Positions 12,012 through 30,738 are shown, counted from the stretch's first letter. The stretch is 37,864 nucleotides of DNA from Ignavibacteriaceae bacterium (GCA_031292455.1 JARLHC010000152.1:1-37864); one strand, 5' to 3'. Notes: generated by a model from the letters alone, not told the origin. Translations and numbers: made by a program.

Positions 12012-12090
12012 TACAGAGTAAAGAAATTCATAATTAAAAGGTTAAAATGCCAGGCGGGGAGGAAGAAAACTTATGATCAATTAAATAAGA

Positions 12091-13125: not shown

Positions 13126-13191
13126 AACACTTAAAAAATAAATAATATTTTAAAATTTAATAATAAATATTGTTAATAGCACAAAGACAGA

Positions 13192-14025
13192 CTATTTTAT
13201 ATTTATTAAATTTAAGGAATCCATATCATCAAACACCTGGTTTTCCCCACCCATTCCCCAAATAAAGGAATAGTTGGAACTGCCTACACCCGAATGAATA
13301 GAAAAACTTGGAGAAATTACGGCTTGTTTATCACGGACGACAATATGTCTTGTTTCATTCTCTTCTCCCATAAAATGGAAGACCATAGAATCATCTTTAA
13401 TATTAAAATAAAGATATATTTCTGTTCTCCTCTGATGAGTATGGGGGGGGAATGTATTCCAAACACTACCATTTTCAATTTCAGTTAATCCCATTACCAA
13501 CTGGCAACTTTCCACCTTACCAGGAAGAATATATTTATTTATTACCCTTTTATTACAATTTTCAATCGTTCCCAGCGACTGTTTTTCTGCTTCCGCATAC
13601 TGAATAAGCTTAAGAGGTAATTCCTTATGGGCAGGATAACTTACAATATAGAATAAGGATGGATCATTTTTATTATCAGAGGATAATTTAATTTCTCTAG
13701 CTCCTTTACCTACATAGAGACAATCTTTATTATCCAGATGAAATGACTTGCCATCGACCTGAATAGTTCCACCTTTACCGATATTAATAACGCCTATTTC
13801 TCTTCTTTCGGCAAAATATTCCGAAGCAGTTTCCTTTTTACTTCCTGTGAGAGAGAGATCCTTATTGGTTGGTACTGCTGAACCAATAATGCAACGATCA
13901 ACATCTGTATAAATTAATTTTAACCTACCCGGTTTAAATAAAGAATCGACTAAAAAATTATTCCTGAGTTCTTCAGAATTCATTTTTTTATAATAATTTG
14001 GGTTATATGTATATCTTACTTCCAC
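13192..14025 (-). CDS. kduI: 5-dehydro-4-deoxy-D-glucuronate isomerase (KduI)
   Basis: This 277-aa enzyme isomerises 5-keto-4-deoxyuronate, the product of unsaturated galacturonate ring opening, to 3-deoxy-D-glycero-2,5-hexodiulosonate, the KduD substrate. Zinc ligands are His195, His197, Glu202 and His244, at nearly the same positions as in E. coli KduI. RREIGVINIG, CQLVMGLTE and SIHSGVGSSNYSFIWGMGG are typical. The start is GTG, 2 nt after the GH105 stop codon. It is preferred over the ATG at residue 15 because MEVR aligns with the MDVR start of known KduI. The gene follows the enzyme that releases its substrate precursor, as expected. Confidence 0.94.
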   Translation of the reverse strand: MEVRYTYNPNYYKKMNSEELRNNFLVDSLFKPGRLKLIYTDVDRCIIGSAVPTNKDLSLTGSKKETASEYFAERREIGVINIGKGGTIQVDGKSFHLDNKDCLYVGKGAREIKLSSDNKNDPSLFYIVSYPAHKELPLKLIQYAEAEKQSLGTIENCNKRVINKYILPGKVESCQLVMGLTEIENGSVWNTFPPHTHQRRTEIYLYFNIKDDSMVFHFMGEENETRHIVVRDKQAVISPSFSIHSGVGSSNYSFIWGMGGENQVFDDMDSLNLINIK

Positions 14026-14027
14026 TT

Positions 14028-15962
14028 TTATCTTACCACTTCTTTTTGTTTAATTGTTTTGCTTAACAGCCACCCGAAAAGATTTTCGGCTGCTTTATGA
14101 TTATCGAAATCATCAGTTAATTTCCTGTTATCAATATACTCATTATATAGCCAGGGATCGCCAACTGCGAATACAAATCCTTTACCGTATTGGGAGGAGG
14201 ACATGAATACTTTGCCCCTTTGTTTAAGAACCGATATGGCATTTTTGCTTAGTTTTATTGTTGAGATTTCCTTCAAGAATATATTTTTAACATCTTTAAA
14301 GAGAGGATGTTCCGGTAAATTATTAAATTTACCTAAATTGAAATTTTTCCCTGTAACTCTGTTTTCGCTATCTTCATTGAAATGGATGCCGAATACTTCT
14401 GCCAGCTTGTTAAGATGAGTAAATTCACAGTTGGCACTATCATTAGCCAGAAGGACTAATACTCCTCCCTGTTTTACCCATGAAGTAATATTTTTAACTG
14501 CTTCGGAACTGATATAATTAGGAGTTCTTGTTTCTTCGGGAGTATCCGGATCAACGATAATATAAATATCAAATTTTTTCAGGTTTTCAGGTGATGGAGA
14601 AACCACAAGTGAATCAATACCGGCGCCAAATCTTTTAATGATTCCGCCTAATTCTGAAAACCCAGAATTTTCGACATCTTCCCAGATATAGTGATATCTT
14701 TTATTGTTTTTATATTCATTATTATAAAAATAGTCGAGACCAACTTTTTTATTTTTATATTTAATCAGATTCCCTTTTTCCAGTTCAACAGAAGCTAACA
14801 AAAGAGGGCCATAGCCCTTGAAATCATTGGTTCTTCTGAGTTCATGAATATAATAATTATAACTTCCATCGCGGTAGGGGTTTCCGCCCAGCCCAGCGCC
14901 GGCGCATACATTAGTTAAATTTAGCTGACCATCATTAAATTTAATAAAATTATCCTGCAATGAAATAAAGGATTGCTTAGCTATATTAAAATAATTGTCC
15001 GGTAGGTAACCTTTATTAGAACCCTTAGCGAAGGCATAAATAAACATCAAAGAAGCGGAAGTTTCGATATAATTTCCATCTTCTTTTCCCTTATCGATTA
15101 TCTGATACCATAAATTCAGTTTAGGATCACGATAATTTAACAAACTTGAAGATAGTTCACGAAATATTCTTAATAATTCATTTCTTTGAGGATGGTTTTG
15201 AGGGAAATAATCGAGCACATCCACAAGAGCCATTAGATACCATCCCATTGCGCGGCCCCAGAAACATGGGGAAGTACCCTTAACCGGATCAGCCCATTTC
15301 TGAGATTTACTTTCATCCCAGCCATGATAATAAAGTCCAGTTGACTTATCCTTCAAATGCTTTTCAACAAGCAGAAACTGGTTTGCGATATCATTGAACG
15401 AGTCTTTTTCATCAGACAATGAAGCATATTCAGCATAGAAAGGTTCTGCCATAAAGAGACCATCCAGCCACATTTGGCCGGGATAGATCTTTTTATGCCA
15501 GAATCCCCCTTCTGATGTTCTTGGTTGTTTTCTTAATTGTTCTCTTAAAGTATCGGCAGCTTTCTTATATTTTTCATTTTTAGTGAGACTAAACAAATTT
15601 AATAATACCCTGCCCTGAGAGATATTATCCAGGTTCTGGTCATTCAATTTATATGTTTTAATTTTTCCATTATTTTCAATATAATAATCAAGATTTTTCT
15701 TTATATAGTTCAGATAAACATTCTTTCCTGTTTCTATCCACATTTGATCAAATGCTTCAAGGACAAGTCCCTGTTCATAATTCCATTTCCGGCTATTACT
15801 TTGATCGTAATAAATTATTGAATCCGGGTAAAGACTAAGGAAATTTGCTGCAATTTCAACAGAAGTTAATACATGATTGATATTATTCTGCTGAGAAAAC
15901 AGACAAAAGGGGAAAGATAATATTATGAAAGATATAATGAGTACTGAATTTTTAAATTTCAT
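14028..15962 (-). CDS. GH105 unsaturated galacturonyl/rhamnogalacturonyl hydrolase fused to a ThuA/DUF4350-like C-terminal domain
   Basis: The protein removes unsaturated uronic acid from the non-reducing end of pectin lyase products. It has a signal peptide and a six-hairpin barrel over the first about 400 residues. The general acid Asp is in the QMWLDGL motif, and WGRAMGW follows about 70 residues later, both typical of GH88/GH105. The last about 210 residues form a second domain resembling the glutamine-amidotransferase-like fold (DIYIIVDPDTPEETRTPN, WVKQGGVLVLLAND, GKGFVFAVGDPWLYNEY). Its role is unknown. I chose the ATG at 15962 (644 aa); a TTG five codons earlier at 15977 is also in frame. 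The kduI gene follows after 2 nt. Confidence 0.85.
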   Translation of the reverse strand: MKFKNSVLIISFIILSFPFCLFSQQNNINHVLTSVEIAANFLSLYPDSIIYYDQSNSRKWNYEQGLVLEAFDQMWIETGKNVYLNYIKKNLDYYIENNGKIKTYKLNDQNLDNISQGRVLLNLFSLTKNEKYKKAADTLREQLRKQPRTSEGGFWHKKIYPGQMWLDGLFMAEPFYAEYASLSDEKDSFNDIANQFLLVEKHLKDKSTGLYYHGWDESKSQKWADPVKGTSPCFWGRAMGWYLMALVDVLDYFPQNHPQRNELLRIFRELSSSLLNYRDPKLNLWYQIIDKGKEDGNYIETSASLMFIYAFAKGSNKGYLPDNYFNIAKQSFISLQDNFIKFNDGQLNLTNVCAGAGLGGNPYRDGSYNYYIHELRRTNDFKGYGPLLLASVELEKGNLIKYKNKKVGLDYFYNNEYKNNKRYHYIWEDVENSGFSELGGIIKRFGAGIDSLVVSPSPENLKKFDIYIIVDPDTPEETRTPNYISSEAVKNITSWVKQGGVLVLLANDSANCEFTHLNKLAEVFGIHFNEDSENRVTGKNFNLGKFNNLPEHPLFKDVKNIFLKEISTIKLSKNAISVLKQRGKVFMSSSQYGKGFVFAVGDPWLYNEYIDNRKLTDDFDNHKAAENLFGWLLSKTIKQKEVVR

Positions 15963-16033
15963 TAAATCTAAAATCAATATTTTAAATAAGGAAGAAATGA
16001 AAAGGACATATTGTTATTATCAAGGGACATGAT

Positions 16034-16078: not shown

Positions 16079-17677
16079 TTATTTAATAAGATTCATTTTC
16101 TGAATAGAGACTTTATCACCTTGCTGTAATCTTGCAAAATAAATACCCGATGGTCTATTTCTTGCATCGAAGGTAACTTCTAACATGTTACCAGATTTTG
16201 CATTTCCTTCAAACAAAGTAGTAACTTCCTGGCCTAAAATGTTCAATACTTTTAATGAAGTAAACCCATCCTTTGGAACTGTAAAACGAATAATTGTACT
16301 AGGATTAAACGGATTGGGGTAATTGTTAAATAATTTGAACACTCTTGGAGCGGGAGAAACATTTTTAACTCCTTCGGGCCAACCCTGGATTGGAACAGCA
16401 GTATGCCCACCAGCGTAAACAACTGAGCCATTAGTTCCAATAACAATGGGATTAACGCTATTATTCAGAAGTCCCTGCTTTAGAGTAAGAACTCCATTTA
16501 CAGTATCAGCCTTGCTAAAAGAAACTGTGTCAGGATTATCTATAGTAAGGTTATTTACAGTTGTTGGCACCAAAGAATCGATTTGTGAAGTAATTCCGTG
16601 ATACAGATAATTACCATCCTTTGGTAATATTTTTAATCCTTGCATTGAAAGGTTCCCACTTAGACCTCTGTTATGTGAAGTCATTAAAGTTGTACCAGAA
16701 GATTGAGTAAATGTAGCTGTCGTCGAACCGCCAATTGAAGTTGTTGTCAAGTCAACTATTGCGCCAGGACTCACTATAAAATTAACATTTGATATTGAGC
16801 CGAGAGAATCTGCTTTGTAAAAAGTCTGTTTTGTTGTGCCAACAAAAAAGAATGTATCTGCCAGAGTCCCAACGGAAGAATTAGTAGTCATTGATCCATC
16901 CTGAAGATTTAGGTCACCCGAAAGGTACCAATTACAAGCAGCCCCACTACCATTGGCAAGATTAAGGATACCATGGGAAGTGATGTTTCCTTTTACATGA
17001 ATTTCGATAGTATCCCCTCCACTAGAACCAGTTGATGTAAGAACGCTGGTAGTATCCAGAAGATTAATGTCACCATTGATTGTAATTACGTTTGCTTTAG
17101 GAGCAGAATTACCGGTCTTGCTATCAGTTAAACGCAAATATGTTTTATTTATATTACCTTGTATTACGTTAACATTTCCTCCTATTGTATTATTATTCCA
17201 CGACAGGTTAACCGCAGTGGTGTTATTGGGACACTTCCAGGAAAAGTTATAAAAATTCTGATTGCAGTTTGAAGGCATGGTATCCTTAACCGCTGTAAAT
17301 AAACAGGTTGATCCGGGACCCCAAGCCGCTGATGGAACGCTCCCCGCATTGATAGCATGTTCATAGACACCATTATTTCCGAAAGTTAAATTAGTTGAAG
17401 AGTTACCTAGTTTTCCGCCTAAGCTGTCTACTATTTCCCCGGTAATTGTAATCGATATATTTACATCAACTGAGTCACGAAGTGTAATATTTTCAGAACC
17501 GGTTGGAGCTGCAGAAGCAGCTACCCAGGTAGTACCGTTATAAGTCTGCCAGGTTGCAGCAGAATTCCACTTTCCCTGACCGTGACTTCGGAAGTCACCA
17601 TTTGACTGAGAAAATATATTAGCTGGCAAAAGCATAAAGAGAGAAGCCAAGATACATAATGAAATTTTAGTTCTCAT
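16079..17677 (-). CDS. T9SS-sorted secreted protein with GDFRS...WQTYNG N-terminal motif
   Basis: This 532-aa protein has a signal peptide (about 1-23), then a motif of the form GDFRS-x-G-x-W-TWQTYNG-x-x-WVAA. A repetitive beta-rich body follows, and a type A T9SS sorting domain (NNYPNPFNPST, SGIYFARLQ, ending KMNLIK) ends it. It is expected on the cell surface. The N-terminal motif and the NFYN-CPN segment recur in the 759-aa protein at 25471-27750, so the two are paralogues flanking the outer-membrane genes. A strong ribosome binding site (TGGAGGT) precedes the ATG. No enzymatic motif is recognised; a pectin- or cell-wall-binding role is guessed from context. Confidence 0.78.
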   Translation of the reverse strand: MRTKISLCILASLFMLLPANIFSQSNGDFRSHGQGKWNSAATWQTYNGTTWVAASAAPTGSENITLRDSVDVNISITITGEIVDSLGGKLGNSSTNLTFGNNGVYEHAINAGSVPSAAWGPGSTCLFTAVKDTMPSNCNQNFYNFSWKCPNNTTAVNLSWNNNTIGGNVNVIQGNINKTYLRLTDSKTGNSAPKANVITINGDINLLDTTSVLTSTGSSGGDTIEIHVKGNITSHGILNLANGSGAACNWYLSGDLNLQDGSMTTNSSVGTLADTFFFVGTTKQTFYKADSLGSISNVNFIVSPGAIVDLTTTSIGGSTTATFTQSSGTTLMTSHNRGLSGNLSMQGLKILPKDGNYLYHGITSQIDSLVPTTVNNLTIDNPDTVSFSKADTVNGVLTLKQGLLNNSVNPIVIGTNGSVVYAGGHTAVPIQGWPEGVKNVSPAPRVFKLFNNYPNPFNPSTIIRFTVPKDGFTSLKVLNILGQEVTTLFEGNAKSGNMLEVTFDARNRPSGIYFARLQQGDKVSIQKMNLIK

Positions 17678-17786
17678 ATCAAACCTCCAAATAATTGTTG
17701 AATAGAAATAATAATTAGTTTTCTAAAGCTCCTGAATAATAATCGACTTTTAATTTTAATAAATATAAAAGGGTAAACATGTTTAT

Positions 17787-19286
17787 TTATTTAGACCATG
17801 GCATACTAATATTATATGCAATTTCTGCAGTTATATAATTATTTTTAGAACTATTGAGGAATACGGCATCCTGCAACATATCATCATATTTAACATTAAA
17901 ATATTCATAAGTAATATCCAGTTTCAGATTATACCAGCTAAAGCCAAGTCCACCTGAAATAACTGTGGTATAAACGGGATCACCCAGAAAAGGATTCCCT
18001 TCCTCTTCAAAAACTTCAGCCTTATCGCTATATCCGCAGCGGATAGTAAGCCAATTTAAAGGAGCATATTCAGCTCCAAGATGCAACAAATGAGAAGATT
18101 CCCATGGGTTGGAAGTAACTGCTCCACTGGAATAGCTGGCATTTCCCATTGGTCTTAATTCATATTCAATTATTCCTCTTAAATTCTCTAAAACAGAGAC
18201 AGACAAACCGAAGCTACCCCGCCAGGGAAGTTTAATTTTATCGGAACCGCTAACAGAAGTAGTATTTGAAATGCCGATTGTATCATTCTGATATGCATAT
18301 TGATAATTTCTGGTTATTGTAGTAGGTGGTTTAATTGAAAACCCCATGGTCAGGTTACCGGATTTATATAAACCGCTAAAATTTATTTCTGCACCACTAT
18401 AATCAGAAGTTCCGTTTTTTGTATTTTGATAATCAACTGAATCTACCCGAAAATAACTTGAATAAAAAACAAGTCTACCCCGTCCTAACTGAGATTCAAA
18501 ATCATTAGTTGATCCTTTTATAAGCATACCACTCAGACCAAATGAAAGGTTTTCTGTGACACCAAAAGAAAAAGCAGCACCATAACCATATATTGATCCC
18601 TCTCTGTTCCGGATATTCTGATACCATTGAACAGGCAGAGAACTGGAATCGTTTTTAACGAGTTCGACCGGGAAAGGACGTTGAATATTTACTGCAGGAG
18701 ATAAAACATTGTTATCCTGAAAGTAAAAATTCATATTGGCATATTCAACAGCACCTAACCCTGCTACTGCTTTATATTCGCCGATGTTAAAAGGAATGGC
18801 AGCCATAATTTGAGTTGGAAGGTTTTTATTTTTTGTCCGACTCCAACTTGGTCCGATTTTATCGAATGGTCTTTGAACCGAATCCTTTGCAGTATGAGTT
18901 GTTGTAGAATCTAAAACAGGATTCGGGATAAGTCCAGTCAGTCCTTCCATTAAAAGGCTGAAATTAGGATAATATTTGGCAGGTCCATATTGTTGTATCT
19001 GACTTTGATCAAGCATCCAATAAGAGTTTCCCAAAGTCACCTGAAATGAGTTTAAATTCAGCAATTCAGCAGGGTTTGAAAACATTATGGAAGCATCGTT
19101 TTTAATTCCAATTGTTGTACCGCCCAAAGCTCTGGAAACAGCCGAATAATTTGTATTCTTATCCAATCCCTGCATAGTTAAGGGTTCGTTAAATCTTGTT
19201 CCCTGTGCAAAGGAAATATTTCCCGGGATAACAAGGAAACTAAAAAGCAAAAAGATTAAAGATAAAAGAGTAAATAAATTCCTCAT
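17787..19286 (-). CDS. FadL/OmpP1-like outer membrane beta-barrel protein
   Basis: This 499-aa protein has a signal peptide (about 1-27, ending SFAQ) and a long series of alternating beta-strands, with the SRALGGTTIGIKNDASIMFSNPAE segment that resembles the hatch region of FadL/OmpP1 porins. It should sit in the outer membrane as a transport channel. The start codon overlaps the stop codon of the PorV-like gene by 4 nt (ATGA), so the two are translationally coupled. In this setting it may carry oligogalacturonides or serve the T9SS, but substrate cannot be told from sequence. Confidence 0.7.
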   Translation of the reverse strand: MRNLFTLLSLIFLLFSFLVIPGNISFAQGTRFNEPLTMQGLDKNTNYSAVSRALGGTTIGIKNDASIMFSNPAELLNLNSFQVTLGNSYWMLDQSQIQQYGPAKYYPNFSLLMEGLTGLIPNPVLDSTTTHTAKDSVQRPFDKIGPSWSRTKNKNLPTQIMAAIPFNIGEYKAVAGLGAVEYANMNFYFQDNNVLSPAVNIQRPFPVELVKNDSSSLPVQWYQNIRNREGSIYGYGAAFSFGVTENLSFGLSGMLIKGSTNDFESQLGRGRLVFYSSYFRVDSVDYQNTKNGTSDYSGAEINFSGLYKSGNLTMGFSIKPPTTITRNYQYAYQNDTIGISNTTSVSGSDKIKLPWRGSFGLSVSVLENLRGIIEYELRPMGNASYSSGAVTSNPWESSHLLHLGAEYAPLNWLTIRCGYSDKAEVFEEEGNPFLGDPVYTTVISGGLGFSWYNLKLDITYEYFNVKYDDMLQDAVFLNSSKNNYITAEIAYNISMPWSK

Positions 19287-20308
19287 AATGCAACTCCTAA
19301 ACTAATTCGGTGAACATCTCCCAGAAAATTGCTAACAGATCCATAGCTATAGTCAAAAGAGAATTTAACGGTACTAATTGCCTGTTTAATTCCAATGCCT
19401 GCAGTGAACCCTTCCGAGTCATAATTAAATTTATATCCAGCTCTCAGAGCGAAGGTGCCAGCGAATTCATATTCAATTCCAAGATGTTCCTGTTGAGCAT
19501 AATCGTTTGGCTGGAACAAATCAAAAGCGAGGCTAAGGCGGTTGTTATCCATATTAAGTAAAAGAGCATCTTTCCCTATTAAATCGGCAGCTACGCCCCA
19601 CCTGAACTGCAATGGAACCGGACTTGATTCTTGTGCATATTTTATATTAGCACCAAAATTCTGTACAGCAATACCAAGCTGGATGGATTTATAGCCGGTA
19701 TTATAATGCATACCGAAGTCAAAAAGCAGCCCGTCTCCCCAAGTATTTACCGTTTCATAAGTTCCCGAAGAAGTCATAGCGTTAAATGTACTACCATTGT
19801 AGAGCGATTCATGTGCATATTTTACAGATATACCAGTTGAAAATTTATCTGTTAAGTTTATTGCATAGCTTAAAGCAACCGCGTAGGCGAATGGATTAAA
19901 TGTTTTTCCAGTAAGAAAAGGATAAGGACCAGTATTAGCATATGCTCTATTCCAAATTGCCTCTTCCATTTCTCCATAATCCACATACTGAAGTGATACG
20001 GCAATAGCTCCGTAATCTTTAAGTGTACTAGCAAAGGAAAGAGCGCCAATTTTAGTATCCATCATCCACATCAAATAAGTAGATGAGAATTCCTGATTTA
20101 CCACCTGAGCTACTCCTGAAGGATTCCAGAACACAGCTTCCGCCCCTGATGCTAAAACGGAGTAGGCATCACCCAGAGCCGTAGCTCTGGCACAAGGCAT
20201 AACTTTAAGGAACTGCATTGAGGTTGTTCCGACTTTTTGCGCATAAATTAAATTAGTACTAAGCATGAACACAATAAGCAGTATTAAATATTTTTTCCAG
20301 TTATTCAT
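19283..20308 (-). CDS. PorV/PorQ-family outer membrane protein
   Basis: This protein of about 341 aa has a signal peptide (about 1-24) and then the signature of the PorV/PorQ (UPF0164) family: VGTTSMQFLKV, ARATALGDAYSVLASGAEA and AVFWNPSG. PorV is the outer membrane shuttle of the T9SS that hands cargo to the surface attachment machinery. The frame is open upstream to 20476, inside the preceding gene. I chose the ATG at 20308 because it gives a normal signal peptide and has AAGGA about 11 nt before it. Its position just after a T9SS cargo gene suggests a dedicated partner. It could also be a simple porin. Confidence 0.8.
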   Translation of the reverse strand: MNNWKKYLILLIVFMLSTNLIYAQKVGTTSMQFLKVMPCARATALGDAYSVLASGAEAVFWNPSGVAQVVNQEFSSTYLMWMMDTKIGALSFASTLKDYGAIAVSLQYVDYGEMEEAIWNRAYANTGPYPFLTGKTFNPFAYAVALSYAINLTDKFSTGISVKYAHESLYNGSTFNAMTSSGTYETVNTWGDGLLFDFGMHYNTGYKSIQLGIAVQNFGANIKYAQESSPVPLQFRWGVAADLIGKDALLLNMDNNRLSLAFDLFQPNDYAQQEHLGIEYEFAGTFALRAGYKFNYDSEGFTAGIGIKQAISTVKFSFDYSYGSVSNFLGDVHRISLGVAL

Positions 20309-20327
20309 TCTTTTTGAATTCCTTATT

Positions 20328-22520
20328 TTAATGAATAATGACAAATTTACCTTTAGCAAGTTTACCGGTGGCTGCATCCACAACGGTAAAGAAATATACG
20401 CCTGAAGCAACCATCTGGTGGTTTCTAGAAATCTGGAACCAGGATACATCTGCGTATGCATCGACATCATGATCAAGCGTTTGAATCAGTTGTCCGCTAA
20501 AGGAAAATATTTTGATTGTACATTTTTTTGTGAGTCCGAAGAACCCAATCTGATCAGAAACTTCTCCTCCAGCTGCAGAACCCGATCTACCATTTGTAAC
20601 GACTAAAGGATTTGGGACGACATATACTTTATCTAAAGTAGGAGCAGCTGGGGCTTGAGTAACATGGTACGTCATATTAGTAAAACCACTCTTCCTTCCA
20701 GTAATATCAACAGAATACACAGCATAATAAACATCAACACCAAGATCGCTTAGAGGATCCAATACGACATATACTGAATCATGAAAATAACGGATGTCTT
20801 TTATACCCACAGTATCAATTATAGACCATGGTCCAAGGGGATCAAGAGCACGCATAACGAGATAATGACTAAACGGAGCATTGAGCCGAGGTGTGGTGAA
20901 GGACTCAACCTGTGGTCCCCAAATAATTTTATTTGAAGCTGAAATAGTATTTTCAATTCTAATTATAGGTGCAGGGAAAGGGATTTTAACCTGATATATT
21001 CCTTTATCAGGTGTATTAGTCGGATCGAACTGCAGTGAATCCCATTTTACCAATGGGTTTCCAGTATACATCTGGATAGCTCTATCAGCTACATCGCGAA
21101 TAGAAACTACATCAGGATCAACATACCAAGGGAGCGGATGAGTTTGCAAGTAATCACTTCCCATACTATTAGGATTTTGAACTTCAGGATATGAGATAGC
21201 CTTATACCAGCTTGGAACAGGGTGTAATCCAGAACCGGTTTCAGTACTCCCCAAAGTACTGCCGCCCATATCTTTATATATACTATCCGATGCTCTTCCC
21301 GGTCCATAACCGACTACTTCAGCAACTGAAAACTTAGCTACATCACCTGGAGCTAAGGTATAGGGGCCAAAAATCGTTCCATGATTAACAGGTAAAGTAA
21401 ATGAACCTTTATAATAAGGCTTACCACGTCCAAGCCAGTAATAGTTATTATTCGGGAAATTCGTAGAATCAGTATGGCCTTTAAAAGGACCTTGTTTGCG
21501 GTTTTGATTATCCAACCATGCGTTAACTTTAGTATTATATAAATTGCCATTTTCCTGTCTTAACACATAAGGCTGTTTGACTTTATGATTTGCATCCCAG
21601 ATTACCTGAGCTTCATCAGTAGGTACATACAAATTTGTTTTGCCACTGTCAGCAAGATGATTATAATCATAATGTAAAGTTATCAAACCAGCTGCCTGTG
21701 GAGAGTTTAATCCTCCTCTATCTCCCGGCTGTGACCAAGTATTGAACAATACAGTATCCGGGCGCCCATCTCGTTCATGATTATACACCATCCACCTTCT
21801 AAGATCAAATCTTCCAAAAGCTTTACTTCTGTAATCTGCTTCACTCCAACGGTTAAACTTTCTCTCATAACCAAACATTGAAGGAGAAAAAGAATATGTC
21901 CAGCCAATAAAAGCCTCTGTCAGGGTATCAGGGGTTGTATTCTGAAATTCATATTCATAAATGATGAAGTTATTGTATCCCGGAAAGCTCCAGGCACGGC
22001 TGGTACGGGTAACTGTAACCCCTGTTTTAATCATTTTCCATTGAGAAACAATAATTTCTTCAGCTTCATTTGGGTTATAAGACGGATTTAAATTGCCATT
22101 GGAGAGAACAGGGTAATTTTCAATCCTTTGTAAAAATTTTGGACTACTGTATACACCTTCTACCGGGGTAGTCTTACCGTCGGTGGTGGAGACTGCACCA
22201 CACAAATCGTAGAGCCTTGGTAGATTTGGACCGGTCGGGTCAGTAATGCCAAAATAAACCCCTCCACCCATTGAATTATGCTGCCCTTCATATTCTGTTC
22301 TGTCAATAAATTCATGCGAATTTGGAGGCCATTCCATAGAAGGAGGAGAACCTCCGGCAATACCAGCACTACCCGCATCGTAGGCTCTTCCCAATTCACC
22401 AGTATTATAAACGGTTTGATGCAGCATACTTCTTGAATGCACACGGTAATCCCTTAATTGGGGGAAAACGATAGATGCCGATAATACTAATAAGAGAAAG
22501 ATTTGTTTCGTTTTTTTCAT
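20328..22520 (-). CDS. Large secreted protein with C-terminal T9SS-type sorting domain, partner of the TonB receptor
   Basis: This 730-aa protein has a signal peptide (about 1-20, no lipobox Cys) and a mostly beta-rich body with many Trp, Tyr and Pro residues. A fibronectin-like region precedes the C-terminal end, which has PNPLVV, IKIFSFSGQLIQTL and SGVYFFTVVD, matching a T9SS type A sorting domain. It follows the TonB receptor gene by 28 nt, the place where a SusD lipoprotein gene would be in Bacteroidetes. I see no SusD-like TPR features. A surface substrate-binding partner of the receptor is a reasonable inference, but the function is unknown. Confidence 0.65.
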   Translation of the reverse strand: MKKTKQIFLLLVLSASIVFPQLRDYRVHSRSMLHQTVYNTGELGRAYDAGSAGIAGGSPPSMEWPPNSHEFIDRTEYEGQHNSMGGGVYFGITDPTGPNLPRLYDLCGAVSTTDGKTTPVEGVYSSPKFLQRIENYPVLSNGNLNPSYNPNEAEEIIVSQWKMIKTGVTVTRTSRAWSFPGYNNFIIYEYEFQNTTPDTLTEAFIGWTYSFSPSMFGYERKFNRWSEADYRSKAFGRFDLRRWMVYNHERDGRPDTVLFNTWSQPGDRGGLNSPQAAGLITLHYDYNHLADSGKTNLYVPTDEAQVIWDANHKVKQPYVLRQENGNLYNTKVNAWLDNQNRKQGPFKGHTDSTNFPNNNYYWLGRGKPYYKGSFTLPVNHGTIFGPYTLAPGDVAKFSVAEVVGYGPGRASDSIYKDMGGSTLGSTETGSGLHPVPSWYKAISYPEVQNPNSMGSDYLQTHPLPWYVDPDVVSIRDVADRAIQMYTGNPLVKWDSLQFDPTNTPDKGIYQVKIPFPAPIIRIENTISASNKIIWGPQVESFTTPRLNAPFSHYLVMRALDPLGPWSIIDTVGIKDIRYFHDSVYVVLDPLSDLGVDVYYAVYSVDITGRKSGFTNMTYHVTQAPAAPTLDKVYVVPNPLVVTNGRSGSAAGGEVSDQIGFFGLTKKCTIKIFSFSGQLIQTLDHDVDAYADVSWFQISRNHQMVASGVYFFTVVDAATGKLAKGKFVIIH

Positions 22521-22548
22521 AATTTCAACCTGTTTACAAGTAAATAAT

Positions 22549-25455
22549 TTATAATTCTAATGAAACACCCAGATTAAATGATCGCGGCTGATTACTGTAA
22601 ATTAAGAAGGACTGATCTACACTGAACTTAGGAATATAGTTCGGATTTGCGTTCCAATATTTAATCCCATCAATCCCATTTTGTTCATATAATTGAGTAA
22701 CTGTACTAACCGCCAGGGCATTTGGCGTGGCGAAAATATAATCATAGTTTAAGATCTTATTATTGAACAAGTTGAATACCTCAAAGTAAATATTAACCGC
22801 CTGGATCCCCCAGAAATTGGTAAGTCGTTTGGTTAATCTCAGATTAGTGTTATACTCGGCAGGAGTTCTTGAACCATTTATTAACTTTGGATTGCTAGGA
22901 GAAGTGTATGGGAGCCCACTACGCGCAAACATATTTAGTGATAAATAAGTACCCAGATTAAGGTCAGATCCCAAAGAACGTAATAATTCGTCCGAATCAA
23001 ATACAAGATTTACGGTAAGATTGTGTGTCCTGTCAAAACCAAGGAGTACGTCTTTTAAGGGTACCTTATCATTATTTGTGGTAACATTTCCATCCAAATC
23101 CTGAATAAAAGAAGGAGGGGCATAGTCTGCAGTAGCGCTTTTTCCAGTAGCAACGCTATATTGATAATTTATTGACCCAGATACAAAACCGGATTTTTTT
23201 GCCAGTGCTACTCTGAACCCGCGTATATCTGCATTATCCCTATTATAATATGATGTATATGTTAAGCCCTTATTGCTTGTAAAATTAGCAGCCTCAACCA
23301 AGTTTTTAACATCTTTATAATAGCCACTGATGTCTAGTGTAAAACCCGCTACAAGGCCCTGCATAATACCAACATCATAACTATTTGTAATCTGTGGTTC
23401 AAGTCTTGGATTTCCAAGTATTTGGGGCATATTACTTCCCTGTTGAACAGTTGCACCTACAACATATTGGAATGAAGGCCTCTGCATAAACGAACCATAA
23501 TTGGCGTGAAATACTGTAAATTCTCCTACAGGAAAAGAGACACCAACTCTTGGCTGAAGCCTTGCAATGATCGGAGATTTAGCTTGTGATGCTGATGCAG
23601 CATCATAGCGGACCCCAATACTATCCATAATAAGCTTATAAGGTGCAAACAAATTAGTATAATAATTTAAACCGGAATTCCAAACATCAAGACGAAGCCC
23701 CACATTTGCAATCATGCCTTCAAATTCCATCTTGTCCTGTATATAAAGTGCACCTTCGTATGGATGGGCTGAATATACCGATATAGCACCACCTGAACCG
23801 GTCTGAGTAGATGCTGCATCATTAACATCGATTGTATAAGCATTAAACTGAATGCCTCCATTAAGCAGATGAGATTTAGTAACCTGGCTTGTCATAGAAG
23901 CATCAAGAGAATAAGTTCGGGTTTTTTCATTTTTGAAATTGTCATCTCCCTTTAAATAATAAAACAGGTCGGGTGATGTAGTAGCACCAACCAGAACTTT
24001 ATCCCAATCAATTATAGGCTTAGGATATATGAGTGAATCGGCCACGGAACTGGGAGCCGGAGCTGAACCAACAGTATTATTCGTAATCAAACTATTAAGC
24101 TTGATATCATAAAAAGTACTTTTATCTAATGCTTTTGAAAAGCGCAAACCAAGCTGAATATTTTCATTTTTCTGGTAATTTATTGAAAGAATCCGGTCCC
24201 ACATCCAGTTATAAAAGCCCAAACTGTTCTGACTAGGAAAAACATTTGTATTATCAAGCGCATAACCGCCACTTAACCTTAGTGAAGCGCCATCACTAAC
24301 ATCGAAAACAAGATTGCCCATTATCTGTCTTTGTTTATCAGGTTGTTCTGTAGGAAAAGTTGGCCAATTTATATCATTCCGGAAAGCTAAAAACATACGC
24401 ATTTTTTCATTGACCGGTCCACCAAGAGTAAATTCGGCAGATTGGTCCATTTCTGTTCCATAATTCCTATTCATATCGCGTTTAGTTTGGTAACGCCAAA
24501 GAGTTCTGGCAGCCGCCAATTGAGCTGCAGTATCACCACCGAAAATATTATTTAATCCAAAAGCTCTGAAATACCCCTGATTATTTGAGCTTGGATCAGA
24601 TGATAACCAAGCTGATAGGCTGTCATTCAGCAACGATAATCCAGGATTAGATTTAGGATCAAATACACTAGGTCCAAAATGTTTTCTACCCGGAGCTCTG
24701 GTACGCACATCTGCCGTGGCTCTCCATTTGTCTGATTTACCTTCTTTCATTGTAATATTAACAACACCCGATTGGGCATTACCATACTCGGCCCCAAAAC
24801 CGCTGGTAACAACTTCAACTTCTTCAACAGCGCTCATAATTGGAAGGAAAGCACTTGTACTGTTTAGAGGATTAATAATTCCCATACCCTGAAGAGTATA
24901 GTACTCTTCCCCAGTTCTACCACCCCTGAAATGACCATCAGTAACATCAGCGGCAAGTCCGATTACATCACCCACGGTTCTTATTCCTGCCATATTTTGA
25001 ATATCATCGGTACGTATGATAGTGCTAGTTGATGTTTTTTCTTTTTCAACATCAGGACGAGTTGCTTGAATTACAACAGTACTAAGTTGAAGGCTAGACG
25101 ATATCATTGAGAAATTTGCAATCGTAGTCTTTCCTGAGTTTACGATTGTATTTTTCTGAATTATTTTCTGATAGCCTAACATTGAAACCTGCAGATCATA
25201 TTTACCCGGAGTAATATTAAGGATATAGTATGAACCATCAACACCAGAAGCTGCTCCCATTGAAGTTCCTAAAACAACAATATTAGCACCGATAAGAGGT
25301 TCCCCAGTAACTTGGTCCTTAATTGTACCAGATATTTTACCCTCGTTTTGTGCATAAAGGGCTCCTGCGGATAGTACCGCAAATAATCCTATAGAGAAAA
25401 TTACTCTTGCTCCTTTTAAAAGAGCATTGATAAAAGAAGTAATCTGTTTTATCAT
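22549..25455 (-). CDS. TonB-dependent receptor with CarboxypepD_reg-like N-terminal domain
   Basis: This 968-aa outer membrane receptor has a signal peptide (about 1-36), a CarboxypepD_reg-like domain (about 39-125, with GKISGTIKDQVTGEPLIGAN), a plug (about 140-245, with VEEVEVVTSGFGAEYGNAQSG and VVNITMKEG) and a long beta-barrel to the C-terminus. It should import oligosaccharides, here presumably oligogalacturonides, using TonB energy. The N-terminal layout is SusC-like, but no SusD gene follows. It lies 15 nt after a T9SS protein gene and 28 nt before another. Iron or cobalamin uptake is possible but unlikely in this setting. Confidence 0.88.
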   Translation of the reverse strand: MIKQITSFINALLKGARVIFSIGLFAVLSAGALYAQNEGKISGTIKDQVTGEPLIGANIVVLGTSMGAASGVDGSYYILNITPGKYDLQVSMLGYQKIIQKNTIVNSGKTTIANFSMISSSLQLSTVVIQATRPDVEKEKTSTSTIIRTDDIQNMAGIRTVGDVIGLAADVTDGHFRGGRTGEEYYTLQGMGIINPLNSTSAFLPIMSAVEEVEVVTSGFGAEYGNAQSGVVNITMKEGKSDKWRATADVRTRAPGRKHFGPSVFDPKSNPGLSLLNDSLSAWLSSDPSSNNQGYFRAFGLNNIFGGDTAAQLAAARTLWRYQTKRDMNRNYGTEMDQSAEFTLGGPVNEKMRMFLAFRNDINWPTFPTEQPDKQRQIMGNLVFDVSDGASLRLSGGYALDNTNVFPSQNSLGFYNWMWDRILSINYQKNENIQLGLRFSKALDKSTFYDIKLNSLITNNTVGSAPAPSSVADSLIYPKPIIDWDKVLVGATTSPDLFYYLKGDDNFKNEKTRTYSLDASMTSQVTKSHLLNGGIQFNAYTIDVNDAASTQTGSGGAISVYSAHPYEGALYIQDKMEFEGMIANVGLRLDVWNSGLNYYTNLFAPYKLIMDSIGVRYDAASASQAKSPIIARLQPRVGVSFPVGEFTVFHANYGSFMQRPSFQYVVGATVQQGSNMPQILGNPRLEPQITNSYDVGIMQGLVAGFTLDISGYYKDVKNLVEAANFTSNKGLTYTSYYNRDNADIRGFRVALAKKSGFVSGSINYQYSVATGKSATADYAPPSFIQDLDGNVTTNNDKVPLKDVLLGFDRTHNLTVNLVFDSDELLRSLGSDLNLGTYLSLNMFARSGLPYTSPSNPKLINGSRTPAEYNTNLRLTKRLTNFWGIQAVNIYFEVFNLFNNKILNYDYIFATPNALAVSTVTQLYEQNGIDGIKYWNANPNYIPKFSVDQSFLIYSNQPRSFNLGVSLEL

Positions 25456-25470
25456 TTGGGTTCCTATTTT

Positions 25471-27750
25471 CTATTTTAAGAGCATCATTTTTTTAATTTC
25501 AGAGAAATTATTCCCAGTAACTTTTTCTGTTGCAGAAATTCTATAGAAATAAACTCCGGATGGAATACTCTTATTTATTAAAGATGAATTAAAATCTACG
25601 GAATAATAACCAGCTGATTGTTCATCATTAACAAGTTGAGTAACCCTTTCTCCAGTCAAGTTATAAACATCAAGAATAACTTTTGAATCGGTAGAAAGGG
25701 AATAATTTATTCTAGTTGACGGATTAAAAGGATTTGGATAGTTTTGGCTTAAATCAAACTTCTTTGGTAAAGCAATTTCAGCTTCTACAATACCACTGTA
25801 TTTATATGTGCCATCATAATCAATCATTTTTAATCTATAATGGTACTTACCTGCCTGCATATTCTTTTCAGTAAAGGAATAATTCTTTGTTGAAGTGCTA
25901 GTCCCGGATGCCTGTACAGATCCGACATTTAGCCATGATAATGATTCTCCATTAGTTTTTAATAGAGCACGTTCAATTTCAAATTTACTGCAATTTTTTT
26001 CAGTACTGGTTACCCATTTAATCTGAATAGTTCTTGAATTATTTGATGCAGAAAAAGAAGTTAACTCGACGGGTAATACATTTGAACCGCCTGTATGATC
26101 AGCTATTGTGAAAATGGTGCTACTGGTCAAATCTGTAAAGCTATTTGTTGAAGTAATAGCGCCTGCGGGACTCCCTTTACCTGTTCCACCCAGATCGGTC
26201 CAAGTTCCTGTACCAGTGACCGAACCTTGTGCTATCCTCAAATTTAGTGTATCTAAAACACCATCAGCGGCAGTATAATTTAATAAAACTGATCCTGCTG
26301 TAAATGATGAACCACCCGTACTCTCTGAAATATTATAATATCCAAGAGCGGCAACTTTATCCAAAGTTCCAGGTAAAGTATTGTGGGGGGGAGCAGCATT
26401 AAACAATTCTGCAGTATAGGTTGAAATTGTAGCCGCGCTTTGGGTAAGTGACAAACTCAGCGGACGATAATTTGAACCTTTACCAACTGGATAATTTTTT
26501 GTAGTTGAACTAGCAGATGCATAGAGATATGCCATTGGCCCATTTACATAACTTGTTGAACTTCCCGGTGCAGTTGAACTTACTGTTCCACTTGTGACTG
26601 AAGTTCCAGTCCACCACCCCATAATTAATGGATTTGAAGCAGAGGACGCGATGATGCCGCCATTTAAATATAATGTTGTTACATTTACAGGTGATAACAG
26701 AGAAACTGTTGCCCCAGCACCTATTTCGATTGGAGTTGCATTACCAGTCAGAGCTGTAGGTGCAAGATAAAGATATTGGATACCATTTTTCTTAAATATA
26801 AACTTTGCACCATCCGGTGTGGAATTGGAGTTTTGCATTGATGCAGCTATTATTTTAACCGAATCACCATAGAAATTCCAAATCGCTGTTCCGACAGAGC
26901 CCTGAGATCCGCGGGATAAAGAAAAATTACCTGTTGTATTTACATTTACTTTACCATAAATATTTATCGTATCGTTTGTACCTGAACTTGTTCCATTATT
27001 TGTAGCATTTGCAGCACCGGAGACAATAAAATCTCCCATTATATTAATAGTGCCGCTGCTGCCTCCAAATAATTGTAAACGACCAAGGTTTGTATTTAAT
27101 ATAGATAATGTTCCTCCAATAGTATTAGCAATGAAACCCCAGCCAAAGCTTCCCGTTTGAGAAGGGCAATTCCAATTAACATTATAAAAATTTTGAGTAG
27201 CACCAGCAGCCCAACCTGTGGCACTTATTAATCCAGTAGAGTTAACATTAAGTGTTGAACCTGTTAACCATGTAGCGACCGGAAGAGCGGGCTTAGTTGT
27301 TCCCGTTTGGTTATAATTAACAATACCCCCATTTCCAATTGTTAAAGTACCGGTTGTTTTAGTTATACTAAAAGGTGCTGCAGTAGGTACATTACCATTT
27401 ATAGTAAGAGTCCCATTAACAGTCATGCCTTCCAAGGTTACATAGAGTACTACCGAATCTTTGATAATAACATTTGCACCTGCATTTACAGTAACATTCC
27501 GAATACCAACTGTAGCTGCGACAGTAACCTCATGAGGACTTTGAATTGTAACAGCAGCAGGAGAAGTTGAATCGGGTGATGAGACAGCAGCAACCCATGC
27601 TGAACCATTCCACGTCTGCCAGGTAGTTAAATCCTGCCAATTGCCAGACTGTGCAGACCGGAAGTCACCTGAGCTTTGTCCAAACAAAAATGATGTGGAA
27701 ACGAACCCAGTAATGAACATTGCTAAAAAAAGTAAACTTAGTTTTTTCAT
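25471..27750 (-). CDS. T9SS-sorted secreted protein with GDFRS...WQTWNG N-terminal motif
   Basis: This 759-aa protein has a signal peptide (about 1-24) and the same N-terminal motif as the 532-aa protein at 16079-17677 (GDFRS, W-TWQTWNG, WVAA). A repetitive beta-rich body follows, then an LPVELTSF-led fibronectin-III-like module and a type A T9SS sorting domain (NYPNPFNPST, ending KMMLLK). It should be surface-attached. The C-terminal cassette is a more distant relative of those at 1-602 and 943-3222. AAGGAG lies before the ATG. It directly precedes the TonB receptor gene (15 nt), suggesting a role in capturing substrate at the surface. Confidence 0.8.
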   Translation of the reverse strand: MKKLSLLFLAMFITGFVSTSFLFGQSSGDFRSAQSGNWQDLTTWQTWNGSAWVAAVSSPDSTSPAAVTIQSPHEVTVAATVGIRNVTVNAGANVIIKDSVVLYVTLEGMTVNGTLTINGNVPTAAPFSITKTTGTLTIGNGGIVNYNQTGTTKPALPVATWLTGSTLNVNSTGLISATGWAAGATQNFYNVNWNCPSQTGSFGWGFIANTIGGTLSILNTNLGRLQLFGGSSGTINIMGDFIVSGAANATNNGTSSGTNDTINIYGKVNVNTTGNFSLSRGSQGSVGTAIWNFYGDSVKIIAASMQNSNSTPDGAKFIFKKNGIQYLYLAPTALTGNATPIEIGAGATVSLLSPVNVTTLYLNGGIIASSASNPLIMGWWTGTSVTSGTVSSTAPGSSTSYVNGPMAYLYASASSTTKNYPVGKGSNYRPLSLSLTQSAATISTYTAELFNAAPPHNTLPGTLDKVAALGYYNISESTGGSSFTAGSVLLNYTAADGVLDTLNLRIAQGSVTGTGTWTDLGGTGKGSPAGAITSTNSFTDLTSSTIFTIADHTGGSNVLPVELTSFSASNNSRTIQIKWVTSTEKNCSKFEIERALLKTNGESLSWLNVGSVQASGTSTSTKNYSFTEKNMQAGKYHYRLKMIDYDGTYKYSGIVEAEIALPKKFDLSQNYPNPFNPSTRINYSLSTDSKVILDVYNLTGERVTQLVNDEQSAGYYSVDFNSSLINKSIPSGVYFYRISATEKVTGNNFSEIKKMMLLK

Positions 27751-27818: not shown

Positions 27819-29189
27819 CTACTTCTTAATTTGTATAGGCTTACCATTAACGGTAACAGATTGACATTTTGTAATATCAATATTTTCTAAAACATTACTA
27901 TTTTTTACATTTTCAAAAGAACAATTTTCTATCTGAAGATTCTTCACAGGAGACCTTTCATAAGCCTTCATATTTAAAGCATACCGAGATTTCTTTGAAG
28001 TAACATTGTCGAAATAGAAATTTCTCATAACAGGAGTAAACTTCCCGACATCCCCCTTGTCATAATAGTAATCAATAAGAATTACTGCTTCTTTAACTTC
28101 GCCAACATCAATATTTCTGCAATAAACATTTTCAATAACCCCACCTCTTTCGGAGTTTGTTTTAAAACGCAGGGCCCTATCAAGGTTCGGACTGCTCATA
28201 ACACAATTTTCTGCATACACATTTCTAACACCACCTGATACTTCGCTACCGATAACTACCCCACCATGTCCATCTTTCATCACGCATCCCTGAATAACAA
28301 TATTGCTGGATGGAACGTTAACTCTTCTGCCGTCATTGTTACGCCCTGATTTTATAGCGATACAATCATCACCATTATTGAAAGAGCAACCTTTTATTAA
28401 TACATCAGTGCATGATTCCGGATCGCAGCCGTCATTATTGGGGCCAATTCCATCAGTTGCTACATTATTAAATGTTACATTTTTGCATAAGACCGGATTA
28501 AGGAACCACATTGAGGAATTTCTAAAGGTTACCCCATCAACAAGAATATTCTTACATTTATACGGTTGGAAGAAAACAGGTCTTAGAAATGAACTTTTAC
28601 CAAACACACGATCTTTAACGGGGGTATTATCTTCCCCCATTTTAACTAATTTATCCCTTGCAGGTGTCTGACTAAATTCCCCTTCAGAAGCTTTCCATTT
28701 CCACCAGTTTTCTTTACTCCCCTGCCCGTCGAGAAGTCCTTGGCCTGTAACAGCGATATTCTTTTGATCATACGCATAAATTAGAGGTGAATAATTGAAA
28801 CATTCAACTCCCTCGAATCGTGTATATACAACGGGTAAATATTTGGAAGGATCAGTAGAGAATTTAACAATTGCCCCTTTAGAGACGTAGAGATTTACGC
28901 CGCTTTTCAGATGAATGGCACCGGTAAGGAATGTCCCTTCAGGGACTATTACTTTTCCTCCTCCTTCTTTCGAACATTTATCAATTGCAACTTTGAATGC
29001 ATTAGTACAATCAGTAACTCCATCAGCAACCGCACCAAAAGATGTAATTAAATAATCTTTATCCCTGAACTTCGGAGGCTTAATATTCTTTAGTATTTTA
29101 TTAAGACCATTCCATCCGTCATCAGCGGGAAAAATGTTTGCATGTAGAAATAGAAAGTTAAGTAATAAAAACAGTAGCGTTTTATTCAT
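27819..29189 (-). CDS. Secreted GH28 polygalacturonase (exo-type)
   Basis: This 456-aa enzyme has a signal peptide (about 1-22) and a GH28 beta-helix. All four motifs are near canonical: NNDGCD (251-256), GDDC (273-276), GHGG (307-310) and RFK (341-343), with SFGAVADGVTD near the N-terminus. The long insert around 120-205, with YTRFEGVECFNYSP, is typical of bacterial exo-polygalacturonases that release mono- or digalacturonate. No T9SS domain is present, so a periplasmic place is likely. It follows the PL9 lyase gene by 34 nt. Confidence 0.92.
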   Translation of the reverse strand: MNKTLLFLLLNFLFLHANIFPADDGWNGLNKILKNIKPPKFRDKDYLITSFGAVADGVTDCTNAFKVAIDKCSKEGGGKVIVPEGTFLTGAIHLKSGVNLYVSKGAIVKFSTDPSKYLPVVYTRFEGVECFNYSPLIYAYDQKNIAVTGQGLLDGQGSKENWWKWKASEGEFSQTPARDKLVKMGEDNTPVKDRVFGKSSFLRPVFFQPYKCKNILVDGVTFRNSSMWFLNPVLCKNVTFNNVATDGIGPNNDGCDPESCTDVLIKGCSFNNGDDCIAIKSGRNNDGRRVNVPSSNIVIQGCVMKDGHGGVVIGSEVSGGVRNVYAENCVMSSPNLDRALRFKTNSERGGVIENVYCRNIDVGEVKEAVILIDYYYDKGDVGKFTPVMRNFYFDNVTSKKSRYALNMKAYERSPVKNLQIENCSFENVKNSNVLENIDITKCQSVTVNGKPIQIKK

Positions 29190-29223: not shown

Positions 29224-30738
29224 TTATTTCATCAGAATCATTTTTTTAGTCTGAACGTAATCATCAGTTTTTAAAGTATAGAAATAGATCCCGCTGGCGA
29301 GATTAACAGCATTAAATTTAACATAATATGTTCCTTCCCGTTTATCTTCATTGACAAGAGTTTCAACCTCTTTTCCAAGAATGTTGTATATAGTTAAAAT
29401 TACATGAGATGAAGCCGGAATCTGGTAAGCAATCTCCGTAGAAGGATTAAAGGGGTTTGGATAATTATTAGATAAATAATAGCCAACTTTATGATTAACT
29501 TCATTTTTCAAACTTGTAAGAGTATCATCTGTTTCAAAACAGCCGAGATCAGGAGCAATTCCATTATATGGACGCCCAGGGATAATTGTGCCTGAATTTA
29601 TCAAGTGGGTGCCATGAGTAAGATGCATAAAATTAACATCAGGAAGACTGCCATCCGGTTTACGCGGACCTCTTACACCGGCAGTATCAAGACTTACAAA
29701 ATCGGACATAGTTACTGAATCGGGAAGCATCCAGCTATTTGTTGTAAGGATAGGATTAAATAAAGTTCCTAATACACCGTAGACAAGACAATTAGTTACT
29801 GTTAAAACTTTACCAGAATCCAATGCATAGGGCACACTATAATTTTTAGATCCGTTTCTATAGCCTGTGCAGTTAATAAGGGTCATGGAGCCTTTATTAT
29901 TATTCTGGTCAAATCCTTTTACTTTATTATCAAAAGAAAGGCAGTTATACAAGATGAAATTATGTTCAAGGTTCTTGAGATCGCTACCCCCCATTTTGAA
30001 TCCATTTCCGTTTCCAGCGCTGCTAACCGTCCAATCTTTATGAAAACCGTTCATAAAAGTCCAGCAGTTATCGAGAGTAGTTGTAATGTTATTAGAGGGT
30101 CTGAGGTAACCATCAAAACCATCATCAGTATTCTGCCATGACCTGCAGCCATAAAAATAATTGTTTGTTCCCACGTCAAGTTTAGGTGAAAAACCATCTG
30201 AATTCCCTTCGGTAGGATCCATATTATAATAAGAATCGCAGTTAATTATTTTATTATTGTTTGCTCCGCCACCTAGCTGCATTCCAGAATCTCTATTTTG
30301 CGACATGCTGCAATTTTCAACTATATTGAATGAACCAGATATATAGATTCCATTATCACCAGCACCAATAATATCGAAGCCTCTTACATGCCAGTATTTT
30401 GCTTTTATTTGAAGACCTTTACTTCCCAGTGCCTGAGCAGAAAAATCCAAGACAGCCCTTTCTCCCGGATAAGCAAACAAATGGCACAATGTATCCTGTT
30501 TTCCGCTGGGGGTGGTATTAATTGTCAATGTTGCTGTTAAAGTATAGACGCCACCTCTCACAAAGATAGTATCACCGGCAACAATTGAGGATGTAAGTGC
30601 TTTAGAAATAGACTTAAACGGAAAATCTATTGTACCAGCGTTAGTATCAGCTCCGGCAGTTGAAACATAAAGAGTTTTACTATTAATAACCGATATAAAC
30701 AGAATGGAAAACAGCAGAACAGTGCAAGATAATTTCAT
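29224..30738 (-). CDS. PL9-type pectate lyase with T9SS sorting domain
   Basis: This 504-aa protein cuts polygalacturonate by beta-elimination, giving 4,5-unsaturated ends. It has a signal peptide (about 1-20) and a parallel beta-helix. The segment NSDGFSPKLDVGTNNYF with Lys186, followed by NTDDGFDGYLRP (calcium-binding Asp residues), matches the PL9 catalytic region. Residues about 420-504 form a type A T9SS sorting domain (NNYPNPFNPST, ending KKMILMK). So this is the surface depolymerase of the locus, while both GH28 enzymes lack that tag. It lies 75 nt after uxaC. A PL1 or PL3 assignment does not fit these motifs. Confidence 0.85.
   Translation of the reverse strand: MKLSCTVLLFSILFISVINSKTLYVSTAGADTNAGTIDFPFKSISKALTSSIVAGDTIFVRGGVYTLTATLTINTTPSGKQDTLCHLFAYPGERAVLDFSAQALGSKGLQIKAKYWHVRGFDIIGAGDNGIYISGSFNIVENCSMSQNRDSGMQLGGGANNNKIINCDSYYNMDPTEGNSDGFSPKLDVGTNNYFYGCRSWQNTDDGFDGYLRPSNNITTTLDNCWTFMNGFHKDWTVSSAGNGNGFKMGGSDLKNLEHNFILYNCLSFDNKVKGFDQNNNKGSMTLINCTGYRNGSKNYSVPYALDSGKVLTVTNCLVYGVLGTLFNPILTTNSWMLPDSVTMSDFVSLDTAGVRGPRKPDGSLPDVNFMHLTHGTHLINSGTIIPGRPYNGIAPDLGCFETDDTLTSLKNEVNHKVGYYLSNNYPNPFNPSTEIAYQIPASSHVILTIYNILGKEVETLVNEDKREGTYYVKFNAVNLASGIYFYTLKTDDYVQTKKMILMK

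Follow-up and report, generated by a model that had tools for sequence, protein, structure and literature searches.

A conserved cassette of a TonB-dependent receptor, a T9SS-sorted protein and a PorV/PorQ-family barrel in a pectin locus of an Ignavibacteriaceae bacterium: a candidate counterpart of SusCD

A stretch of 37,864 nucleotides from an Ignavibacteriaceae bacterium (GCA_031292455.1, JARLHC010000152.1:1-37864), referred to below as the window, was analysed with respect to a run of six genes at positions 16079-27750. Three consecutive genes of this run, encoding a TonB-dependent receptor (TBDR), a 730-residue protein designated as X and a PorV/PorQ-family barrel, constitute a strictly conserved cassette and not a one-off arrangement. 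The cassette, joined here by a FadL-like barrel, is interpreted as an uptake complex analogous to SusCD, in this window for oligogalacturonides, in which X would serve the receptor; a probability of roughly 0.6 was assigned to this reading. The first-pass annotation had proposed a SusD-less uptake module at this place and was borne out in part, since its core proved right, while its SusC label for the receptor and its inclusion of the upstream protein of the type IX secretion system (T9SS) had to be corrected.

All six genes are open and lie on the minus strand in one direction, with intergenic gaps of 15, 28, 19, -4 and 109 nucleotides in the order of transcription; the first-pass annotation had described them as contiguous. 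The receptor (22549..25455, minus strand, 968 residues) carries CarboxypepD_reg_2, plug and barrel domains by Pfam and is taken as the core subunit. X (20328..22520, minus strand), the proposed surface partner of the TBDR on the evidence of its domains, fold and tail, is followed by the PorV/PorQ-family barrel (19283..20308, minus strand, 341 residues), for which 20308 is the likely start, a mechanically derived open reading frame (ORF) to 20476 being over-extended. The FadL-like barrel (17787..19286, minus strand, 499 residues) overlaps the PorV/PorQ-like gene by 4 nucleotides, and this overlap is real. The run is completed by two proteins with T9SS tails, one of 759 residues upstream of the TBDR (25471..27750, minus strand; TIGR04183 28.7 bits, cut-off 23) and one of 532 residues at the downstream end (16079..17677, minus strand; PF18962 32.6 bits, cut-off 27).

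Conservation of the cassette was determined by using three X-centred sets of loci (42, 75 and 20), which overlap in part, some of the tblastn loci being from the same genomes as the 42-locus set of the order. A scan of the named genomes with X as a single sequence gave no match; with an alignment as the query, the same scan gave 78 X loci, in Ignavibacteria, Rhodothermales, Calditrichota, KSB1, Neomarinimicrobiota and others. X was matched in 155 of the 164 genomes of the order, many through the tail only. In 42/42 loci of the order, X was preceded by a TBDR and followed by a PorV-family gene; in one of them, X and PorV were separated by an ORF. In the tblastn set, wherever the contig reached, X was adjoined by the TBDR in 75/75 loci, by PorV in 74/74 and by the FadL-like gene in 65/65. 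The third set consisted of 20 X proteins, one per family, from a phylum-wide profile search, and again the TBDR preceded and PorV followed X in every case (20/20). The expectation that X homologues always neighbour this class of receptor was thus upheld in all three sets. When the sampling was centred on the receptor instead, 20 of 20 lower-ranking receptors of the window TBDR class in the order carried X and PorV, with X being larger (914 to 1173 residues). An artefact of sampling near relatives was rejected as the source of the linkage on the basis of the 20-family and the receptor-centred samples. A single cassette with swapped order (TBDR-PorV-X) was seen, among those of the receptor-centred sample, at L252 (G096:C27:90600-101000). 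Spread of the cassette by plasmids was also considered, and no match was found in the plasmid collection.

The remaining genes of the run differ in their attachment to this core. The FadL-like gene was present in only 1/20 distant X loci, and therefore it belongs to the close X branch. Homologues of the 532-residue protein follow the FadL-like gene in pectin-type loci (L077, L079-L087, L108 and L114), and this protein is regarded as accessory to the pectin branch. No homologue of the 759-residue protein was seen recurring beside the TBDR in the loci of relatives, and this candidate was rejected as a core member. Of the two outer T9SS proteins that had been counted into the module, then, the downstream one belongs mainly to the pectin branch and the upstream one falls outside the conserved core.

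The own genome of the window contains four TBDR-X-PorV cassettes (C165, C10, C49 and C127). There, X and PorV come after the receptors with at least 439 bits on the TBDR profile and not after those with 124 bits or less. The cassettes of C165 (L053, G000:C165) and C10 (L167, G000:C10) have a much larger X, of 1097 and 1275 residues, respectively, which matches the X profile and no Pfam family. Pairwise distances among 83 cassettes were correlated at 0.94 for X-TBDR, 0.88 for X-PorV and 0.95 for TBDR-PorV; shared ancestry alone raises such correlations, and the paralogues within genomes are the stronger point. Paralogous cassettes within one genome are 23-41% identical, and the nearest neighbours of X, TBDR and PorV alike are found in the same type of cassette in other genomes and not among the paralogues of the own genome. 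The TBDR, X and PorV are inherited as a unit.

The receptor was assigned by family scores. It reached 62.9 bits on CarboxypepD_reg_2 (cut-off 32.2) and has a TBDR barrel, and on the SusC/RagA model TIGR04056 it scored 46.7 bits, below the cut-off of 368. By family score the window TBDR is not a SusC, and "SusC-like" was a loose label. The absence of SusD from the module held: X gave no match to the SusD family at an E-value of 0.1, and a search for PF07980 and PF14322 found no SusD in the own assembly of the window, which is 96.7% complete. SusD was detected in 41/164 genomes of the order, with one to three matches each. The receptors beside SusD in the inspected loci of the order scored 40-122 on the same TBDR profile, where they scored at all, below the cassette receptors of the own genome, so that X-linked and SusD-linked receptors represent two distinct systems that coexist. 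A strict exclusion of X and SusD by genome was rejected, as many genomes carry both. SusD paired with the present receptor class, a finding that would have spoken against the module, was not encountered elsewhere; all 20 receptors of the receptor-centred sample have X, and the SusC-SusD pairs of the order use other receptors.

X is predicted to comprise a signal peptide, a super-beta-sandwich (about residues 20-510), an FN3-like domain (about 515-615) and a T9SS C-terminal domain (about 617-730). The N-terminus is hydrophobic and signal-like. The tail scored 23.9 bits on TIGR04183, barely above the cut-off of 23, and it is conserved across the X family. With a C-terminal sorting domain, a signal peptide and a T9SS in the cell, X qualifies by sequence as putative type A cargo; the T9SS markers of the own genome are the translocon SprA, C25 peptidases and a separate canonical PorV. 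There is no Cys within residues 1-40 of X and hence no lipobox, in agreement with the first description of the protein as T9SS-sorted and free of a lipobox. A lipobox-like string occurs in 3/105 members of the X family, and in one or more of these it precedes the probable start.

The fold of X was predicted as a single chain by AlphaFold with an alignment of 94 sequences, which gave a predicted local distance difference test (pLDDT) of 90.3 and a predicted template modelling score (pTM) of 0.91; an earlier model from 22 sequences had been poor (pLDDT 67.5). In the model, residues of about 20-510 resemble the super-beta-sandwich domains of dextran dextrinase and of GH116, GH94 and GH65 enzymes, with Z of 14-20 across 234-296 residues for the super-beta-sandwich chains listed from the PDB, and with best E-values near 1e-6 in Foldseek. 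As modelled, X thus has the super-beta-sandwich of GH15, GH65, GH94 and GH116 enzymes. The tail matched PorZ of P. gingivalis (5m11) by sequence with an E-value of 0.0017. Beta structure predominates in the model, and the 50 rows listed from the PDB comparison do not include SusD, an absence that by itself is no proof. That X is a diverged SusD was rejected on sequence, the lack of a lipobox and the beta-rich model taken together. The model points to a carbohydrate-associated scaffold and not to a member of the SusD family; a shared fold proves no function.

The barrel encoded after X scored 215 bits on NF033709 (cut-off 90) and 47.7 bits on PF19572 (cut-off 27), and at 95 and 112 bits it stayed below the equivalog cut-offs of PorV (250) and PorQ (220), respectively. 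The PorQ model outscored the PorV model in three of the four cassette barrels of the own genome. The canonical PorV is encoded at C68, just after a C25 peptidase gene, and reached 255 bits against the PorV cut-off of 250, the cassette barrels lying below it; a dedicated, cassette-specific paralogue apart from canonical PorV, as had been supposed, is therefore supported. Further PorV/PorQ-family genes above the family cut-off are located outside the four cassettes, on contigs C106, C114, C58 and C167. The next barrel is FadL-like only in the broad sense, with 18.9 bits on PF03349 (gathering score 29.7), 48 bits on the BamG model (cut-off 250) and weak PorV-family scores.

In the mechanism proposed, secreted pectinases would cut pectin outside the cell and the TBDR would import the resulting oligogalacturonides. 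X would be the surface partner of the TBDR, with the role that SusD has in SusCD and no relationship to SusD. It would cross the inner membrane via its signal peptide and the outer membrane via the T9SS by using its C-terminal domain. Since X is without a lipid anchor, its retention at the surface would most likely be through the T9SS tail on the cassette barrel, the tail being docked on the PorV/PorQ-like protein beside the TBDR, as PorZ is on PorQ. The FadL-like barrel would be a fourth subunit of the polyuronate version. Complex formation, the surface export and tail retention of X, ligand binding, the direction of transport and the cargo are all inferred here. As a tentative extension for the Bacteroidota/FCB group, held at a little under even odds, TBDR-X-PorV may represent a second general class of TonB importers with a surface partner, running alongside SusCD and plentiful where SusCD is rare. 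The T9SS would deliver the partner of this class, the sorting domain would stay on it and fix it to a PorV/Q-like barrel of its own, and uptake would thereby depend on secretion.

The assignment of oligogalacturonides is based on the surroundings, as the gene cluster of the window is a pectin locus. Upstream of the six-gene run are a GH28 exo-acting galacturonidase-type enzyme (27819..29189, minus strand, PF00295 109.6 bits), a PelN/Pel9A-like pectate lyase with a T9SS tail (29224..30738, minus strand, by family profile matches), UxaC and a major facilitator superfamily transporter. Downstream are a GH88 unsaturated glucuronyl/galacturonyl hydrolase with a C-terminal GATase-like region (14028..15977, minus strand, PF07470 354 bits), a KduI isomerase, a LacI-type regulator and a pectinesterase (10995..14025, minus strand, by family profile matches), UxaE, a second GH28 and sugar dehydrogenases. 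The extra C-terminal region of the GH88 protein, which matches LBP_M, IFT52_GIFT and DUF4350, makes an unusual fusion, and the listed TTG start of its gene is probably wrong, an ATG being present at codon 6. Amid the uronate catabolic genes, between those of 6-phosphogluconate dehydrogenase and a short-chain dehydrogenase, is a gene (5916-7190) whose product has a LarA-like lactate-racemase N-terminal domain and is possibly a sugar-acid racemase or epimerase. The pectin cluster is flanked by a DUF4861 protein (33655-34914) and a 553-residue protein (35808-37469) without a Pfam match at 1e-5, and homologues of the latter are also found near alginate-type cassettes (L100, L101 and L122).

Across cassettes, the close X branch with the FadL-like gene is found largely among polyuronate genes: the group nearest to the window with pectin genes, and other close cassettes with chondroitinase B, heparinase II/III and alginate lyase families. 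Of the cassettes of the own genome, that of C127 adjoins a gene of the alginate-lyase/heparinase type, and that of C165 lies beside a GH130 gene. Several points weigh against the interpretation as a SusCD-like complex for oligogalacturonides. Some distant cassettes are without obvious glycan genes nearby, no carbohydrate gene is evident next to the own-genome cassette of C10, the similarities to PorZ and PorQ are far below the family cut-offs, and the modelled super-beta-sandwich of X could also be catalytic. The first two of these points, together with the mixed neighbours of the distant cassettes (TIG, FG-GAP/ASPIC, GHL10 and TPR genes), would be explained if the cassette were a general TBDR system that mostly carries cargo other than glycans, with one branch specialised for pectin and alginate. 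This is considered rather unlikely, given the polyuronate surroundings of the close FadL-bearing branch; it contests the generality only and is compatible with oligogalacturonide uptake in the window.

The last point bears on whether X is instead a secreted super-beta-sandwich or galactose-mutarotase-like enzyme (lyase, hydrolase, epimerase or mutarotase), trimming oligosaccharides at the surface and not binding to the receptor as its partner. The folds closest to it come from domains of carbohydrate enzymes, and the nearly invariant acidic and basic residues of X include E154, R172, E189 and E401. However, the secondary structure of the model, which runs from the sandwich to the FN3-like domain and the T9SS tail, contains no (alpha/alpha)6 catalytic barrel as in those enzymes; one and the same enzyme family would be needed in pectin, alginate and other loci, always between a receptor and a PorV barrel, and the ordinary T9SS enzymes of the same clusters are not so placed. 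An enzymatic role in place of partnership is accordingly rated as improbable. Slightly less probable still is that X is a PorZ-like T9SS accessory or a surface adhesin with a regulatory or assembly-related link to the receptor, for although the likeness of its tail to PorZ and of the barrel to PorV/PorQ would fit, its body matches super-beta-sandwich domains and not PorZ, and a core T9SS part would not be expected in numerous divergent copies with a separate receptor for each.

The preferred interpretation, X as the surface partner of the receptor, was compared with known systems. As in SusCD/RagAB, the gene of a TBDR with an N-terminal CarboxypepD_reg_2 domain comes directly before that of a proposed surface partner in a polysaccharide locus; unlike there, the partner is not SusD by sequence and has a T9SS tail and no lipobox, X is always accompanied by a PorV/Q-like barrel, and the receptor is far below the SusC cut-off. 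In Rhodothermus marinus, an alginate locus with tonB-hypA-hypB-hypC beside alginate lyases has been reported, with the same order of TBDR, T9SS type A protein (2,181 nucleotides), PorV/PorQ family protein and hypothetical protein (1,398 nucleotides), the likeness being one of annotation (PMC9530828). The genes were coded there as transport or hypothetical from annotation only, hypA-hypC were given no functional reading, and a conserved system was not recognised (PMC9530828). PorZ is exported to the surface by the T9SS, retains its C-terminal domain and binds through it to PorQ, a PorV-family barrel (review PMC10202324); the tail of X resembles that of PorZ, and the cassette barrel is similar to PorV and PorQ; PorZ-PorQ differs in having no TBDR partner and in the body of PorZ, and both similarities are below the equivalog cut-offs. 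SprB-SprF and other type B cargo with PorP/SprF likewise have the cargo gene clustered with that of a dedicated PorV-like barrel (PMC10202324), whereas the X tail is type A-like, the cassette barrel is of the PorV/PorQ family, and SprB-SprF pairs are without a receptor. An architectural precedent is BamG-BamH, where the extracellular loops of a FadL-family barrel hold a surface protein by another barrel (PMC12578637, PMC12611786), although the surface protein there, BamH, is a lipoprotein, and BamA does not belong to the TBDRs. In the open-access literature searched, no paper was found that treats TBDR-X-PorV as a system, and the novelty is provisional.

SusCD is the textbook mark of polysaccharide loci in these bacteria, and such loci are often sought by it. 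A susCDE operon has been described in Melioribacter roseus (PMC3534657), and susCD is scarce in the gene clusters of Ignavibacteriales and absent from those of Ca. Kapabacteria (PMC10576277). The cassette may be the means by which glycans enter these abundant bacteria. If the interpretation is true, TBDR-X-PorV would be a marker for glycan loci across the FCB group, the import of nutrients would be tied to the T9SS, and a function would be offered for many PorV/PorQ-family paralogues of these genomes.

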